From Bacillota bacterium (GTDB lineage: Bacteria; Bacillota; Dethiobacteria; DTU022), in the NCBI GenBank assembly GCA_033549065.1, contig JAWSUE010000006.1:62001-126000 (forward strand): 64,000 nucleotides of DNA, read 5' to 3'. A model generated the notes under the pieces. It was not told the DNA's origin, did no database searches, and worked only from the letters and a program-made list of their open reading frames with translations. Position numbers and translations under genes: made by a program. Positions 27,775 to 59,974 of this stretch are shown in pieces. How positions within the stretch are numbered: the stretch's first letter is position 1; the number at the start of each line of letters is the position of its first letter.

Positions 27775-29217
27775 ATGTTTAAGCACTGGAAAGGCAGCAA
27801 CCTTAGAGTTCTTTCCGAAAAAGATATCACTGCAATCCATGAAGCAACAGTGAACCTGTTAGAAAATACCGGAATTAAAATGCATAATGATCGCGCCAGG
27901 CAAATTTTTTCTGATCACCATGCGAAGGTGGATCATGATAATCAGATCGTAAAAATTCCCCGGTCGATGCTTGAAGAAGCTATTGATTCAACACCTTCTT
28001 CGTTAGTCCTTTGCGGAAGGGAAGAGAAAAATGACCTTATTCTTGAAGGTGCCAATGTATACTTAGGAACCGGGGGAACCGTCCTCAACACACTCGATCT
28101 TGAAAATGGCAGGAAGCGTCTTACTGAGGTTAAAGATGTGGCAGGTTATGCAAAGCTGGCAGATGCTTTAGATAATATTGCTTTTTTTGTAATCAATTGC
28201 TACCCCAGCGATGTTAAAACAGAAAATGTTGATATTAATCGCTTCTATCATGCGCTGGCCAATACTTCAAAGCATGTGATGGGTGGCATCTACACCATGG
28301 AAGGTTTACTGGCAGTGATCGAAATGGCAGAACAGATAGCCGGTGGATCAGAAAAACTGCGCCAACGCCCCTTTGTCTCCTTTATTACACTAATGATGAG
28401 CCCACTAGTTATGGAAGTAACCTATACCGATTTTTTAATTGAAATCGCCAGAAGAGGTCTCCCCGTAGCCACTCCCTCAGAACCTCTGGCCGGGGCGAAT
28501 TCACCGGTTACCCTGGCAGGAACGATCACTTTAAATAATGCAGAATCGCTGGGTGGACTTGTTCTGGCGCAACTGGTGAACAAAGGCACTCCGACAATCT
28601 ATGGATCAACATCCAGTATCATGGATATGCGCACCGGGACCTATATGGCTGGAAGTATTGAGTCAGCTTTGATAAACGCCGGATGCGCTCAAATGGCCCA
28701 ATATTATAAAATACCTGTTTATGGTACAGGCGGCATGTCCGATTCAAAAGTTGTTGATGCCCAGGCCGGTTATGAAAGCGCAAACACAGCGATGGTGGTG
28801 GCTCTTTCAGGATGCAACTACATCCACGATGCATTCGGTCTTCTGGAATTCTGCACAACTCTTTCCTATGAAAAAATGGTTATTGACAACGATTCCGTTG
28901 GTATGATTCTTCGGGCTGTTCGTGGTATAAAGGTCGACAAGGAAACTATCGCAAACGAAGTTATTTCAGATGTTGGTCCGGGAGGTCATTTTCTGGATCA
29001 CCCCCACACGGTCAAACATGTCCGGGAAGAGTTTTATTTTCCCCGCCTCTCCGACCGACAGCAGCGCAGCGTATGGGCTGAAGAAGGCTCGAAAGATACA
29101 TTCGAGAGAGCACGTGAAAAAGCAAAAGAGATCCTTGCCGGCCAAAAAGCACCGGGATTTTCTGAAGACCTTGAAAATCTTCTATTTTCCAGGAACAGGG
29201 GACTAAAAAAACTTTAG
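27775..29217 (+). CDS. MttB-family (non-pyrrolysine) quaternary/tertiary amine methyltransferase, copy 1
   Basis: A 480-residue member of the trimethylamine methyltransferase (MttB/MtgB) superfamily, which transfers a methyl group from an amine to a corrinoid protein. Shared family blocks: VYLGTGGTVLNTLDLENG, AGANSPVTLAGT and a GPGGHFLDHPHTVKH C-terminal block. The frame is read through with no in-frame amber codon, so it resembles the non-Pyl enzymes for glycine betaine, proline betaine, carnitine or butyrobetaine rather than trimethylamine MttB. AAAGGAG precedes the ATG. It is followed after 18 bases by a paralogue and then by an OpuC-type transporter. The methyl donor is unknown. Confidence 0.9.
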   Translation: MFKHWKGSNLRVLSEKDITAIHEATVNLLENTGIKMHNDRARQIFSDHHAKVDHDNQIVKIPRSMLEEAIDSTPSSLVLCGREEKNDLILEGANVYLGTGGTVLNTLDLENGRKRLTEVKDVAGYAKLADALDNIAFFVINCYPSDVKTENVDINRFYHALANTSKHVMGGIYTMEGLLAVIEMAEQIAGGSEKLRQRPFVSFITLMMSPLVMEVTYTDFLIEIARRGLPVATPSEPLAGANSPVTLAGTITLNNAESLGGLVLAQLVNKGTPTIYGSTSSIMDMRTGTYMAGSIESALINAGCAQMAQYYKIPVYGTGGMSDSKVVDAQAGYESANTAMVVALSGCNYIHDAFGLLEFCTTLSYEKMVIDNDSVGMILRAVRGIKVDKETIANEVISDVGPGGHFLDHPHTVKHVREEFYFPRLSDRQQRSVWAEEGSKDTFERAREKAKEILAGQKAPGFSEDLENLLFSRNRGLKKL

Positions 29218-29235
29218 TTATTGGGAGGTTTTATT

Positions 29236-30684
29236 TTGTTAAAAGGTACCTATGCAAACTTCTATCAACCTCTTTCCATAAATGATATAAAGGCTATACA
29301 CGAAGCTTCCATGCAGGTACTATCCAAATCCGGATTGCTTATTGATAATAAAAGAGCCCTGCAGTTATTTCATGAAAAAGGTGCTCGTGTGGACTTCACC
29401 CACAAACTGGTTCAACTAGACGAGGATTGGGTGATGAAATACTTAAATAAGGCTCCGGCAAGGATTACTTTATATGGACGGGATGAGAATAATAATCTTG
29501 TGGTTGAACCGAACCGAGTTTATTTCGGCACCGGGGGAACGGCATTGAATATTCTTGACAGAAAATCCGGTAAGCGCAGACCTTCAGTTTCCAGTGATAT
29601 TGCCGATATAGCCCGTCTCGTTGATGCTCTGCCAAATATTCACTGGTATTGTTTACCATTATATCCGAATGAATGCCCCAAAGAAGAAGTCGATATTGCC
29701 AGGTTTTATCACGGTTTGAAGAACACCGGCAAACATGTTATGGGTGGCATTTACGGTGGTAAAGAAGGAGCCAGGGATGTGATCCGGCTTGCTCAAATAT
29801 TCGCCGGCGGTGAAGAAAATCTGCGGAATAATCCCTTGATCTCTGTTATATGCAGTACAATCAGCCCTTTAAAGATGGACACCCGCTATGTTGATTTTAT
29901 CTTTGATCTTGTTAATGCAGGAATTCCTATTGCTACTTCCTGTGCACCCATTGCCGGTGCCACCGCACCGGTTACCCTTGCCGGCAGTCTGGTCCAGATA
30001 AATGCGGAGGCTATTTGCGGCATATTATTGACCCAGGTTATTAAAGAAAGCGCTCCTGCACTTTACAGCACTGTTCCCACTACTGCAAACATGAAAAACA
30101 TGGATTTTCTCTTCGGGGCGGTGGAAAACGGTATTATGAATGCGGCCTGTGCGCAGCTGGCTTCCTTTTACAACCTGCCTATGTACTCAACCGGTGGAGT
30201 TACCGAGTCCAAAATTTTCGATATCCAAAACGGTTATGAAAAGTGTATGAATAACCTTCTGCCGGCGATAGCCGGAGCTCAGCTGATACATAATGCAGCC
30301 GGTCAAATCGATAGTAGTATGACAGTCGCCTATGAACAATATGTCCTCGATGATGAAATAATTGGTATGGCCCTTCGTGTAATGGAGGGAATTCGCATCA
30401 CTTCTGACACCCTTGCATTGGAAGAAATATGTAAAGTTGGCCCGGGTGGCAACTATCTGGCATCTGATCATACCGTAAGAAATATGCGCCATGAACTCTT
30501 TATGCCAAAAGTCGCAGTTCGGACAAATTATGCAGCCTGGTTACGAGAAGGGAAAAGGAATGCTATCGATTTTGCCCGCGAAATAACCGATCAAATATTA
30601 GAAGATCATTATGCTCAATCGCTGCCTGAAAATACGGAGAGCGAAATTTTTATGAATTACCCGTTTCTGAAAGAAGGTGAATGA
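29236..30684 (+). CDS. MttB-family (non-pyrrolysine) methyltransferase, copy 2
   Basis: Paralogue of the preceding gene, with the same block order: VYFGTGGTALNILDRKSGKR, IAGATAPVTLAGS and VGPGGNYLASDHTVRNM. The frame opens at TTG 29221, but GGGAGG at 29223-29228 points to TTG 29236, giving 482 residues starting MLKGTYANFYQPLS. No amber codon interrupts it. Two adjacent diverged copies suggest two related substrates, or a heteromer. Neither a cognate corrinoid protein nor a corrinoid:tetrahydrofolate methyltransferase is in the window. Confidence 0.9.
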   Translation: MLKGTYANFYQPLSINDIKAIHEASMQVLSKSGLLIDNKRALQLFHEKGARVDFTHKLVQLDEDWVMKYLNKAPARITLYGRDENNNLVVEPNRVYFGTGGTALNILDRKSGKRRPSVSSDIADIARLVDALPNIHWYCLPLYPNECPKEEVDIARFYHGLKNTGKHVMGGIYGGKEGARDVIRLAQIFAGGEENLRNNPLISVICSTISPLKMDTRYVDFIFDLVNAGIPIATSCAPIAGATAPVTLAGSLVQINAEAICGILLTQVIKESAPALYSTVPTTANMKNMDFLFGAVENGIMNAACAQLASFYNLPMYSTGGVTESKIFDIQNGYEKCMNNLLPAIAGAQLIHNAAGQIDSSMTVAYEQYVLDDEIIGMALRVMEGIRITSDTLALEEICKVGPGGNYLASDHTVRNMRHELFMPKVAVRTNYAAWLREGKRNAIDFAREITDQILEDHYAQSLPENTESEIFMNYPFLKEGE

Positions 30685-45602: not shown

Positions 45603-46868
45603 ATGGCTGTTATTAAACCTTTTAGAGGAATCAGGTATGATCCAAACACTATAACGGATATCAGCTCGGTGATAACACCGCCATACGATGTAATTGATAC
45701 TGCCGAGCAAGAACGGCTCCACCGCAAAAGTGAATTCAACATTATACATCTTGAATACGGTATCTCAAAAGCCAGTGATACGGAAAAAGATAACCGTTAC
45801 ACACGGGCGGCTGAAACCATTAACCGTTGGCTGGAACAAAATGTTCTCGTCTACGACCCTAAACCCTTTTTCTATCTGTATGAACAATCATTCTCCCACG
45901 AAGGTAAAAATTATCATCGGACAGGCCTCGTCGCCACCTTGAAATTAGAGCCATATAGCAAGAGGGTAATCCTGCCGCATGAGCTTACCATGACAGGCCC
46001 GAAACAAGATCGTCTTGAACTGCTGCGCAGTACCCGGACCAACATCAGTCCCATCTTCACTCTCTTTCCTGATCCTGAAGCCAAAATTAAAACGTTATCT
46101 CTACATAAGTCTGAGGCTCCGATAGTGGAAGCAGTTGAAGAAAACGGACAAACTCATCGCCTCTGGCTTCTAAAGGATCATGCTTTCCAGGTTGAGCTTG
46201 CTGAATACCTTGCCTCGCAGCAGCTTTTAATTGCCGATGGCCATCACCGGTACGAAACTGCCCTGAAATATTTTGAAAGTGCCGGCAGCAACCCTATTCC
46301 CGGTTCCGCATATATCATGACAATGATGGTCAGTATGAAAGATTCAGGATTGCTCATGCTTCCTACGCACCGTCTACTCGATTCCTTAACGGAAGAAGAA
46401 TTTAATCGCCTCAATTCGACCGTGAATGAACAATTTAAAGTCATCGATTTCGGTCCGACAGTTGAACTGAATAAAACACTTTATCTCAAAGAACTGAATA
46501 ATATAAGCCGCCTCAACAGAGGCTTTGGTTGGATTACCCGTGAACAGGCTTTTGTACTATTCCCCAAATCTTCCCAGGCAAACCGGGAACTACCCGTTTC
46601 GCTTCTACACGACCAGCTGCTTAAGCCATTTCATAAAACGGCAAGAACCGAAGATCCTGCTGAAGACAGGTTGCATTACACTCATAATTTTGATTCCGCA
46701 GTTAATGCTTTATTATCAGGAAAGTCTCATTCAGCCTTTATTCTTGATACCATACCTGTTGAAGATGTTTTCGAGCGCGCCCGACAGGGCCTGGTCATGC
46801 CTCAGAAGTCTACCTACTTTTATCCCAAACTGCCCAGCGGGCTGGTCCTCTACCGCTTTAATTCCTGA
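45603..46868 (+). CDS. DUF1015 family protein
   Basis: A 421-residue protein of the DUF1015 family. The N-terminal hallmark AVIKPFRGIRYD with VITPPYDVID and the central LLIADGHHRYETAL are clear. No function is established. The DGHHR segment resembles the phosphate-binding motif of the ParB/Srx fold, also used by free serine kinases, so a nucleotide- or phosphate-dependent activity is possible but unproven. CGGAGG precedes the ATG. It is divergent from rpsB and convergent with the deacetylase gene across repeat copy 1. Confidence 0.9.
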   Translation: MAVIKPFRGIRYDPNTITDISSVITPPYDVIDTAEQERLHRKSEFNIIHLEYGISKASDTEKDNRYTRAAETINRWLEQNVLVYDPKPFFYLYEQSFSHEGKNYHRTGLVATLKLEPYSKRVILPHELTMTGPKQDRLELLRSTRTNISPIFTLFPDPEAKIKTLSLHKSEAPIVEAVEENGQTHRLWLLKDHAFQVELAEYLASQQLLIADGHHRYETALKYFESAGSNPIPGSAYIMTMMVSMKDSGLLMLPTHRLLDSLTEEEFNRLNSTVNEQFKVIDFGPTVELNKTLYLKELNNISRLNRGFGWITREQAFVLFPKSSQANRELPVSLLHDQLLKPFHKTARTEDPAEDRLHYTHNFDSAVNALLSGKSHSAFILDTIPVEDVFERARQGLVMPQKSTYFYPKLPSGLVLYRFNS

Positions 46869-46926
46869 TTCTATTTATGAGCTATACTTGCTACTTATAC
46901 ATTTACTTATACTTTTTAATTTTCGC

Positions 46927-47366
46927 TAAGCAGACCCTGACATTGTTCGCTCCGGGGTTTTGCACTGCTTATCCACTTATACGGATGCTTTAAACCTTGG
47001 CTCACGTAAGCTCGCTGCAGGCTTACAGCATCCGCATTATTGCATGCTTGCTCTGGTTTTAAGCAAACGAACCAACCTGAAGCAGGATAAGCAAACCCTG
47101 ATACTGTAAGCGACATTAGCATGAGCGGTTAGAATTACCGGTGAGTCGAAATAAAGTTGTCAGGGGACACATAACCTTCGGTCAATATGTCCCCATACGT
47201 ATTATGCCTCTCCGGAATGATTAATACTGCTTCAGCTTTCCGGAGAGGCAGACCGAGGCCGGAGACTTAAGTGTCGACTGTTGAGGCTGCCCGCTGAAGC
47301 TTGAAGGCGAACCGGCATTAATTCTCCGCGAAATGATCCGGAGCGAACTGTATCAGGGTCTTCTTA
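46927..47366 (+). repeat. Dispersed structured element, copy 1 (modules A and B)
   Basis: A 440-bp non-coding element filling most of the 579-base gap between two convergent genes. Its ends are 29-bp imperfect terminal inverted repeats (46927-46955 and 47338-47366, 25 of 29 matching). Module A (about 46927-47086) forms a bulged helix, GGATGCT...AGCATCC with GTAAGC...GCTTAC inside. Module B (47125-47329) is described separately. A direct internal copy of the end sequence lies near 47085-47108, between the modules. A hairpin GGGGACA...TGTCCCC (about 47163-47194) is absent from copy 2. No transposase frame is present. Flanks 46869-46926 and 47367-47447 hold nothing I can name. Confidence 0.85.
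47125..47329 (+). ncRNA. Candidate structured RNA, module B, instance 1
   Basis: Closing helix: GCGG (47125), AGAATTA (47131-47137) and CCGG (47138-47141) pair with CCGG (47312-47315), TAATTCT (47319-47325) and CCGC (47326-47329). Inside is a perfect 13-bp hairpin (47205-47217 with 47238-47250) whose 20-base loop contains ATTAA and CTGCTTCAG. A conserved 36-base box (47251-47286) and a small GCC...GGC hairpin follow. Transcription has not been shown. Confidence 0.55.
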
Positions 47367-47447
47367 AACTATAAAACTATAAAGTATTTGGGGACTTCTT
47401 AAGATCGAACTGTCCGGATGGGAAATGATCAGCAAAAATTCTTTAGT

Positions 47448-48500
47448 TTAAATATCCCAGTAGCGCTTCTGAATTTCTAGTATTTCCTGCAGGCGCTGCA
47501 GGACAAAACGGTTTGGTTCAAGGCCTGGGCTCTGCTCGCCTATTGGTAGACCCCAGTTACCCAATGCATTTAGAACCTGGACTACTGCACCCGCTTGTCC
47601 GGTGAGGTGATAGCCTCCCTCAAGGCAAAGGACTAACTTTCCACCGCAGTGGTGTTCAGCAGCATCTGATAAAGCCAGAGCCATATTATAATAACCCTGA
47701 TATGTAAGGCCCATTCCTGCCAGGGGATCATAGCGGTATGCATCCTGACCGGCAGAAATCAAGATAATCTCCGGCTCAAAACGGCCTATAACCGGGATGA
47801 TCAGATGGTCAAAAAAGAGCTTATAGTCCTCATCCCCACTACCAGTTGGAAGTGGGATATTAACCGTAAATCCTTCGCCCAGATCTTTACCCACTTCTTC
47901 CATTGAACCTGTACCAGGGTATGCCGGATTCTGGTGAGTTGAAATGAATAAAACCTCGTTATCCTTTTCAAAGATATGCTGGGTACCGTTTCCGTGATGA
48001 ACATCCCAATCCATGATGACAATTCTTTTTAAGCCGTAGTCACGTTTCGCAACCTCGGCAGTAATGGCTATATTGTTCATCAGGCAAAATCCCATTGCCC
48101 GACCTCTCTCGGCATGATGCCCCGGGGGGCGATTTAAAGCGAATGCCTTTCTCACGTCGCCTTCCATAACCATTCTCAGGCCGGTTAATACTCCCCCCGC
48201 AGATAAAAGGGCTATCCTGTATGATTCGGGAACTATATAAGTATCCATATCAAGGAAATTTCTGCCGGACCGGCAGACTTCATCCAGCAGTTTTATATAG
48301 TCAGGGTCGTGAACCAGGGTTACATCATCAATCTCCGCCGGGGCAGGTTCTTTTAAAACAACTCTCTCGAAGAGATTATTATCTTCAAGAGCGGCCATTA
48401 TATGCTCAAGCCGCTCTTTGCGCTCCGGATGCTGGCCCTGCGTATGTATTAAGTAATCTGCATGATAGATTAGGCCTATTTTTTCTTCTTTACCGTTCAT
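47448..48500 (-). CDS. Histone deacetylase-family (AcuC-like) amidohydrolase
   Basis: A zinc-dependent deacetylase of the arginase/HDAC fold; AcuC in Bacillus deacetylates acetyl-CoA synthetase, while other members act on acetylpolyamines. Catalytic and zinc features: RPPGHHAERGRAMGFC with its His pair, DWDVHHGNGTQ, and SAGQDAYRYDPLAGMGLT. The frame opens at 48668, but ATG 48500 has GTGAGGG upstream and gives a 350-residue family-length protein starting MNGKEEKIGLIYH. It ends next to repeat copy 1 and follows a thioesterase gene by 13 bases. Substrate unknown. Confidence 0.9.
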   Translation of the reverse strand: MNGKEEKIGLIYHADYLIHTQGQHPERKERLEHIMAALEDNNLFERVVLKEPAPAEIDDVTLVHDPDYIKLLDEVCRSGRNFLDMDTYIVPESYRIALLSAGGVLTGLRMVMEGDVRKAFALNRPPGHHAERGRAMGFCLMNNIAITAEVAKRDYGLKRIVIMDWDVHHGNGTQHIFEKDNEVLFISTHQNPAYPGTGSMEEVGKDLGEGFTVNIPLPTGSGDEDYKLFFDHLIIPVIGRFEPEIILISAGQDAYRYDPLAGMGLTYQGYYNMALALSDAAEHHCGGKLVLCLEGGYHLTGQAGAVVQVLNALGNWGLPIGEQSPGLEPNRFVLQRLQEILEIQKRYWDI

Positions 48501-48513
48501 AATATCCCTCACT

Positions 48514-48936
48514 TCAGTCAGAATCGGTTTCCAGTGCCCTGCATAACCTGTTCCATAAAAAAGGGCTGAATTTCTTGAGCACAACAGGTTTACCATTATC
48601 ACTGATAAATGCATGTTCGGTATAACCGTTTGCCAGTAATTTACCTGCCCTGCGGATATCATAGGCAAAGGTTATCCGCACATTATCAAGATTTTCAAGC
48701 CTGGTCACGATAGAAAGTTCATCGTCATAATGAGCCGGCATTTTATATTCACAGAAAGCTTTCAGGACAGGAAGATAGATATTACTCTTTTCAAACTCCA
48801 GGTAGGGCAGCTCCAGGCTTCTCATCAGTTCAGTCCGACCAACTTCAAACCATACCAGGTAGTTGGCATAATAAGCGACACCCATTTGATCTGTATCCTT
48901 GTAGCGTACCCTTACTTTTGTTTCATATTTTTTCAA
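48514..48936 (-). CDS. Acyl-CoA thioesterase, YbgC/4-hydroxybenzoyl-CoA thioesterase family
   Basis: A 140-residue hotdog-fold thioesterase. The active-site block YKDTDQMGVAYYANYLVWFE has the catalytic Asp and is followed by GRTELMRSL. Such proteins cleave short- to medium-chain or aromatic acyl-CoA. It lies between the pyk and AcuC-like genes in one direction. Confidence 0.9.
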   Translation of the reverse strand: MKKYETKVRVRYKDTDQMGVAYYANYLVWFEVGRTELMRSLELPYLEFEKSNIYLPVLKAFCEYKMPAHYDDELSIVTRLENLDNVRITFAYDIRRAGKLLANGYTEHAFISDNGKPVVLKKFSPFLWNRLCRALETDSD

Positions 48937-55493: not shown

Positions 55494-55540
55494 CGATTTA
55501 AATGTCAGAGAACATAATATAAAAATTTTTACTCCACAAC

Positions 55541-55631
55541 CTGCAGCGTGCTTACGTGAGCCAGGGCTTACAACATCCGTATATATATGGATCATCAGTG
55601 CAAATCTCCGGAACGAACAGGATCAGAATCT
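55541..55631 (-). repeat. Dispersed element, solo module A (copy 3, inverted)
   Basis: About 90 bp that align, as reverse complement, with the left part of copy 1 (46931 to about 47021): the module A GTGAGCCA...GGCTTA arm, CATCCGTAT, GCAGTGCAAA and the end-repeat CGGAACGAACAGGATCAG. Module B is absent. It lies in the 206-base gap between the AI-2E gene and nth. Confidence 0.75.
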
Positions 55632-59266: not shown

Positions 59267-59459
59267 TCCATCCTTATTCCTGAATCCTCAATCAATCTAA
59301 AACTTTAATCCCTGGTTCACGATTATCGTCTTACACCTGATTTGATAACCAATTTACGCTACTCTTTATCAGCAGACTCCGATACTGTTCGCTCCGGGGT
59401 TTTGCACTTCTTATCCACTTATACGGATGCTGTAAGCCTTGGCTCACGTAAGCTCGCTG

Positions 59460-59639
59460 AGAATTGCTGCGGCTTAACTGCAGCCTTCCAAGAGAAACCT
59501 CGACAGTCGACACTTAAGTCTCCGGCCTCGGTCCGGTCTTTAAAAAACCTGAAGCAGAATTTAATATTTTTAATGACCGGATCTCTTTATTCGCTTTGTT
59601 TCGCCGGCAATTCTAGACCACTCGCTTAATGATTCGCTG
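59460..59639 (-). mobile_element. Nested inverted module B (instance 3) inside copy 2
   Basis: Read on the minus strand this carries AGAATTG (59608-59614) pairing with CAATTCT (59460-59466), a 14-bp hairpin with one mismatch (59567-59580 with 59533-59547), the loop ATTAAATTCTGCTTCAG, and the 36-base box at 59498-59533, which is 35/36 identical to the box of instance 2. TCGCTG at 59454-59459 and 59634-59639 may be a target-site duplication, since copy 1 has only one such site at this place. Confidence 0.6.
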
Positions 59640-59745
59640 CAGGCTTACAGCACCCGCCTTATTGCATGCTTGTTATGTTTTAAATAAATAAACCAACCTG
59701 AAACGGGATAAGCAGACCCTGATACTGTAAGCGACATTAACATGA

Positions 59746-59911
59746 GCGGTTAGAATTACCGGTGAGCCGAAAGAAGAAGCGGTAAATGCCTCTCCGGAAT
59801 GATTAATACTGTTTCAGCTTTCCAGAGAGGCAGACCGAGGCCGGAGACTTTAGTGTCGACTGTCGAGGCTGCCTGCTGAAGCTTGAAGGCGAACCGGCAG
59901 TAATTCTCCGC
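59746..59911 (+). ncRNA. Candidate structured RNA, module B, instance 2
   Basis: Same layout as instance 1. Closing helix GCGG/AGAATTA/CCGG (59746-59762) with CCGG/TAATTCT/CCGC (59894-59911), a 13-bp hairpin with one mismatch (59787-59799 with 59820-59832) and loop CTGTTTCAG, then the 36-base box at 59833-59868. Confidence 0.55.
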
Positions 59912-59974
59912 GAAATGATCCGGAGCGCACAGTATCAGGTTCTGCTTATACGATAAAATATCTTGAATGGATGA

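Follow-up and report, generated by a model that had tools for sequence, protein, structure and literature searches.

Introduction

A stretch of 64,000 nucleotides of a Bacillota genome, in the following termed the window, contains three instances of a repeat, which a sequence-only reading had taken for a candidate structured RNA, since stems appeared to change while their pairing was kept. A simple inverted-repeat transposon was named by the same reading as the alternative. The question raised by this locus is whether the repeat is an RNA, a mobile element, or both. The source genome of the window (G000; other genomes are numbered likewise) comprises 2.39 Mb on 61 contigs.

Copies in the Window and in Its Genome

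All three instances (47125-47329 and 59746-59911 on the plus strand, 59460-59614 on the minus strand) are present in the sequence, and their coordinates should extend outward to take in the flanking inverted repeats. These are found at 47088-47107/47347-47366 (inner inverted repeat of the 47-kb composite), at 59708-59728/59929-59949 (95%) around the 59.8-kb copy, and at 59413-59439/59641-59667 around the minus copy. The individual features are compiled in Table 1.

Table 1. Positions of the repeat copies and their parts in the window
Feature	Position	Strand	Basis
T1 copy, long form, structured core	47103..47351	+	Match to model R1, 207.5 bits, model positions 1-209
Closing helix P1	47131..47325	+	AGAATTA (47131-47137) with TAATTCT (47319-47325); tandem-GA helix inward; covarying pairs
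Extra hairpin insert GGGGACACAT...ATGTCCCC	47163..47194	+	Alignment: only in long T1 copies; absent from short T1, T2, and T3
Hairpin H1	47205..47250	+	Stem TGCCTCTCCGGAA/TTCCGGAGAGGCA (47205-47217/47238-47250); conserved loop letters ATTAA and CTGCTTCAG
Hairpin H2, the 36-base box (GACCGAGGCCGGAGACTTAAGTGTCGACTGTTGAGG)	47251..47286	+	35 of 36 positions shared with 59498-59533 (minus)
Composite element	46927..47366	.	Outer inverted repeat 46927-46955/47338-47366 (29 nt, 86%)
T2 element relic: inverted repeats, RNA core absent	46992..47052	-	Comparison with T2 copies; end match weak and by itself not significant (E 0.24)
T1 copy, short form, structured core (the 59746-59911 instance)	59724..59933	+	R1 match, 223.1 bits
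T2 copy, structured core	59434..59642	-	R1 match, 221.8 bits
Degenerate piece from the left part of the composite, core absent	55540..55631	-	82.5% over 80 nt

G000 holds nine copies according to a whole-genome search, the three window instances and six others, and these fall into three types. T1 is found at 47.1 and 59.8 kb of the window and at C2:69.5, C2:88.8, and C6:50.3 kb; T2 at 59.5 kb of the window (minus), C6:50.6, and C2:61.5 kb; T3 is represented by one diverged copy at about C6:152.8 kb. Within one form, T1 copies are approximately 94-99% identical to each other, the 47-kb copy being 96-99% identical to those at C2:69.5 kb and C6:50 kb. The minus T2 copy is nested in a T1-associated composite, head-to-head with the 59.8-kb T1 copy, while at C2:88.9 kb the composite is found without T2. 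In some copies (L061 1501-1767, L063, L277, L278), H1 or the 5' arm holds an additional long hairpin as an insert, like that of the long T1 copies.

No target duplication was identified at the G000 copies, and no partner transposase in this genome, where the search was made with T1 ends only; the T1 end sequence (AAGCAGACCCTGATACTGT) occurs in G000 in the known copies and in one match with three mismatches. Mobility in G000 is, thus, evident only from near-identical copies at several sites and from the nested insertion, not from target duplications. A consensus scan for promoters and terminators around the 47-kb copy yielded nothing.

Secondary Structure and Covariation

The pair changes described by the sequence-only reading are borne out. 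The closing helix reads AGAATTA/TAATTCT in both plus copies (Table 1; 59752-59758/59901-59907) and AGAATTG/CAATTCT in the minus copy; the H1 stem of the 47-kb copy recurs in the 59.8-kb copy with one mismatch, and the minus copy has another stem, of the CCGG type; and the 36-base box, which matches between the 47-kb and the minus copy as claimed, is kept at 34 of 36 positions in the second plus copy. Because both plus copies are of type T1 and closely related, the covariation within the window amounts to about a single comparison, T1 versus T2. An alignment of T1, T2, and T3 gives one branched structure, composed of P1 (AGAATTR/YAATTCT), a helix with opposed GA/GA, the helix P3, H1 with retained loop letters, and H2, which is the said box. 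P3 is wholly different in the three types and still pairs (AGCGG/CCGCT, AAGAG/CTCTT, GTCGG/CCGAC), being broken in the long T1 form. Single-strand folding yields z-scores of -8.2 (T1), -6.0 (T2), and -4.5 (T3) in comparison with shuffled sequence. A loop-to-downstream pseudoknot of T1, GCTTCAGC/GCTGAAGC, was considered and dropped, because T2 does not preserve the pairing.

In a covariance model of eight G000 copies, 94.6% of 335 cells are paired, with changes on both sides in 21 of 42 pairs; slid alignments give 26-47% paired cells, and the comparison with shuffles stands at 0/500. Covariation was also tested over all pairs of 24 sequences by an own script imitating R-scape, with substitutions re-placed on the tree as the phylogenetic null. 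Helix pairs rank top: pairs 46-175 and 50-170 lie above every null value, followed by the non-helix pair 78-82 (E 0.15) and by 122-145, 45-176, and 36-187 (E approximately 1 for 16,110 pairs).

Distribution among Relatives

Model R1, built on the genomic copies, detects the repeat in nine further genomes, with E-values of 5e-26 to 1e-4. A pattern scan yielded as named relatives Dethiobacter sp. CROMO_SB6, a Bacillota MAG, a MAG labelled Syntrophomonadaceae, and a MAG labelled Desulfovibrio. A second model, R2, was built from the relatives alone, with G000 left out; its alignment is 91.8% paired, with both-side change in 27 of 40 pairs, and its slid controls, like those of the G000 copies, argue against chance. 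R2 matches in 64 of 398 related genomes, belonging to 43 genera, and recovers T1 and T2 of G000 at E-values of 2e-15 to 2e-10, which, since G000 had no part in the model, is an independent confirmation. A similarity search at the DNA level in 100 relatives, viral contigs, and plasmids gave no match.

Copy numbers from the R1 survey and the R2 survey of 398 genomes are lower bounds, with six to eight candidates scored per genome. A deeper R2 search of 11 genomes revealed 104 copies in G057, 41 in G033, 20 in G027, 17 in G021, 10 in G001, and nine in G000. Several contigs of G057 (C20, C85, C148, and C4) start inside a copy, so that assemblies probably break at the repeats and copy numbers are underestimated. 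Next to copies of this genome (flanks L185-L224), a different palindromic repeat, ATTTTCATATTAACCGCCACGACCCTGCGGGTCAC..GATGAAAAT, is often found. In genomes with many copies, the best match of most copies is another copy of the same genome, which points to lineage-specific amplification. The copies are intergenic and occur in either orientation. Between genes for a DUF1015 protein and a histone-deacetylase-like protein lies the 47-kb copy of G000, and the same holds for a head-to-head pair in G020, which belongs to a different genus; in the two genera these genes are convergent neighbours (window 45603-48668; L038 1-2987) with the core between them. In G006 and G021, the core is located directly downstream of folB. 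Such positions common across genera suggest long vertical retention of old insertions, or a site preference.

Relation to TwoAYGGAY RNA

The Rfam scan proposed by the sequence-only reading returned no match reaching threshold for the window copies. TLS-PK1, the only candidate obtained there at E up to 10, was rejected as a chance match, and TwoAYGGAY (RF01731, clan CL00106) is absent from the window up to the same limit. Elsewhere in the window, PYLIS_3 matches above the gathering score were noted at 28735-28834 and 30199-30298 (+), inside the ORFs 27775-29217 and 29221-30684; they suggest trimethylamine-type methyltransferases and the use of pyrrolysine. In relatives, RF01731 is matched below its gathering score of 43 bits, which no relative's match reaches: 35.6 bits in G318, 32.9 bits over the full length in G087, 31.7 in G001, 30.6 in G342, 30.5 in G218, and 28.8 in G027. 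At one locus of G057, detection is reciprocal, with RF01731 at 40 bits and R1 at the same place (E 1.5e-5).

The likeness to TwoAYGGAY extends to two adjacent hairpins, a longer closing stem, the hairpin loops, a tandem GA, and the sub-threshold matches of several lineages (26.5-40 bits, several of full length). GGA is found in both hairpin loops (H1, H2) of most relatives while the stems vary, and AYGGAY or shorter AGGA loops were met with in copies of G057, G033, G021, G001, G087, G278, and G364. The tandem GA lies in the enclosing stem, as GGYGARSC opposite GGYGARCC, in T1 and most relatives and is weaker in T2; it is a feature named for TwoAYGGAY (PMC4333381). In contrast, GGA loops are absent from the copies of G000, those of the window included, and of G006, G020, and G023, and the window copies lack any RF01731 match at the limit given above. 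Since relatives match RF01731 below the cut-off, the family is to be regarded as a divergent relative of TwoAYGGAY rather than as a filed member. Drum RNA (RF02958) was suspected as a further relative and rejected, its scores being at chance level and control genomes matching as well. HEARO, omega RNA, and other mobile-element RNAs of Rfam gave no match in searches of the window and its relatives. TwoAYGGAY was scored by its discovery paper as probably RNA and not cis-regulatory (PMC2864571); Rfam types the family "Cis-reg", at odds with that score.

RNA or DNA: The Strand Test

At pairs predicted on both strands, an RNA function of the modelled strand should show itself as an excess of G-U over A-C. 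In small sets, no G-U excess was observed (G-U:A-C 14:15 and 17:19). With 80 copies, the ratio is 57:16 (p 1.5e-6, which is optimistic, because the copies are related), with 36:13 in G057 and 20:8 in G033, but 16:14 in G021; RNase P RNA of related genomes, taken as control, gives 37:8. The small test, which had at first hinted at a constraint at the DNA level, is not relied on, because the 80-copy set reversed its outcome. The consensus also folds better on the forward strand (-30.9 versus -15.3). As the G-U excess is like that of RNase P, the modelled strand appears to behave as RNA, and the strand test lends moderate support to this view.

Mobility of the Element

At a constant place on either side of the core lie inverted repeats of approximately 15-30 bp, the sequence of which differs between lineages. 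The decisive cases are those of G278, in which mobility is visible by its traces. Three copies of this genome, at locations unrelated to each other, share exactly 262 bp at 99.6-100% identity, with 9-bp duplications (ATGAATAAT, GTGGCAGTA, and CAGCCCAGG/CCGCCCAGG). Among 15 elements of G278 bounded by terminal inverted repeats, the 9-base flanks agree at 110 of 135 positions, as opposed to 38 with shuffled partners (0 of 20000 trials reach the observed value), and the core is present in 14 of the 15 elements of approximately 262 bp checked. The same ends bound elements of 1,120 and 1,237 bp in G278 and G364, again with perfect 9-bp duplications, and the transposases encoded by these belong to the IS4 family (NCBIfam NF033591 above cut-off; PF01609). 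The core was not detected by the model in these two autonomous elements. The ends of the G278-type elements presumably resemble those of IS10. In G342, the core is combined with other ends, and single copies are flanked by direct repeats of approximately 9-15 bp. In one further locus (L280 474-1106, G364:C14), an element copy is apparently inserted in a cobalamin riboswitch, the halves of which match on either side.

Hence the features of a MITE are found in relatives: terminal inverted repeats, target-site duplications (G278; single G342 copies), and an autonomous element with matching ends (G278, G364). The location of the core inside such elements, with 9-bp duplications and ends shared with an IS4-type element, indicates a transposon of the MITE-like kind that carries a structured RNA core. 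The transposon alternative of the sequence-only reading, thus, applies in relatives, where the core makes up the body of small transposons, bounded by terminal inverted repeats and by 9-bp target duplications. Its main claim holds in part: selection on structure is upheld far outside the window by two covariance models, the 64 genomes, the test against the phylogenetic null, and the RNase P-like excess of G-U over A-C; a plain RNA gene, however, the repeat is not. Structure under selection and the transposon match taken together, the repeat is at the same time a mobile element and a core resembling a structured RNA.

Interpretation and Alternative Explanations

Summarizing, the family is probably a non-autonomous, MITE-like transposable element, its body being a structured RNA core that is conserved and has a distant relationship to TwoAYGGAY. 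An IS4-type DDE transposase would move the element in trans via its ends. The core would be transcribed and fold as RNA, as covariation and G-U excess suggest, and the two hairpin loops together with the tandem-GA helix would most likely serve as a protein-binding scaffold, so that it is as a protein-binding fold that the core is most likely under selection. For the copies of G000, descent as older members from the same family as the mobile elements of relatives is the best explanation. Points against this scenario are that G000 has neither duplication nor partner, that all RF01731 matches are below gathering score, that the small strand tests are without G-U excess, and that some positions are common across genera.

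Stem covariation is also known from DNA hairpin repeats such as REPINs (PMC3116915), and a palindrome acting purely at the DNA level, recognised as hairpin or cruciform in transposition and without RNA function, its covariation arising from coevolving ends and templated correction of quasi-palindromes, has to be weighed. It would account for inverted-repeat ends that remain complementary while their sequence varies by lineage, for compensatory changes like those of REPINs (PMC3116915), and for the symmetric strand tests of small samples. It is, however, rather unlikely in view of the strand-neutral test of 80 copies, which comes near to RNase P, the better fold of the forward strand, and the strand-specific conservation of loops and tandem GA. 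Multicopy genes for trans-acting small RNAs that titrate CsrA via GGA hairpin loops, as proposed for TwoAYGGAY, with mobility being incidental, are unlikely to a still greater degree: the conservation of the H1 and H2 GGA loops in most lineages over varying stems and the published CsrA hypothesis and tandem-GA helix (PMC4333381) would fit, but CsrA occurs in 18 of 36 genomes with the element versus 22 of 60 without (p 0.21, co-occurrence not significant), none turned up in G000 or in G057, a genome 89% complete with 104 copies, and copies of four genomes lack the loops in question.

That the core is a cis-regulatory leader or riboswitch is highly improbable. The Rfam type label speaks for it; against it stand the orientation of the copies, which is either way relative to neighbour genes, with several between convergent genes, the adjoining genes, which vary from copy to copy, and the score given to TwoAYGGAY by its discoverers (PMC2864571). 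Cis-regulation by the element is, accordingly, unlikely. Chance inverted repeats or an alignment artefact might be thought of, as the window has three instances only, two of them closely related; this has a negligible probability and is already refuted by the z-scores, the slid controls, and the recovery by the independent model R2.

Comparison with Other Repeats and Implications

With IS4-family MITEs, the MITE-like element proposed here shares the length of approximately 260 bp, terminal inverted repeats, 9-bp target duplications, and an autonomous IS4-family element with the same ends (G278, G364); it differs by its interior, a conserved, covarying RNA-like core kept across genera with differing ends, and by the partner, none being found in G000. 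The intergenic repeats bcr1-bcr18 are from the Bacillus cereus group, a different host group; bcr1-3 are MITE-like, and bcr10 and bcr18 are transcribed with conserved secondary structure (PMC3446304). They are likened to the present family by description, as intergenic, MITE-like or structured repeats. REPINs, too, are short, dispersed palindromes, the stems of which change in a compensatory manner (PMC3116915), but require a REP-associated tyrosine transposase (RAYT), whereas the family described here has 9-bp duplications and ends common to a DDE element of the IS4 type. Structured, transcribed MITE-like repeats (bcr, PMC3446304) and hairpin repeats with compensatory changes (REPINs, PMC3116915) are, thus, already known. 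The literature searched yielded no transposon context for TwoAYGGAY, and, as far as this literature shows, the link of a TwoAYGGAY-like fold to IS4-type miniature transposons and its phylum-wide spread are apparently new.

From the present family it follows as a caution that stem covariation in repeats alone does not separate RNA genes from mobile DNA. The function of TwoAYGGAY has been unassigned since 2010, and the CsrA idea in the literature casts it as a host small RNA. If the family at large is made up of IS4-type miniature transposons in which an RNA fold is under selection, the phyletic pattern, the copy number, and the "Cis-reg" label of TwoAYGGAY would need revision. Since the same fold is found across the phylum while the transposon ends are replaced, the RNA may help the elements to move, to be tolerated, or to be retained by the host. 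As a tentative idea, the RNA core might even be active in the element in one of these ways, instead of being a passenger, which would define a class of RNA-bearing miniature transposons with TwoAYGGAY as their body. The hundreds of natural copies offer a chance to ask why a transposon retains a complex RNA structure.
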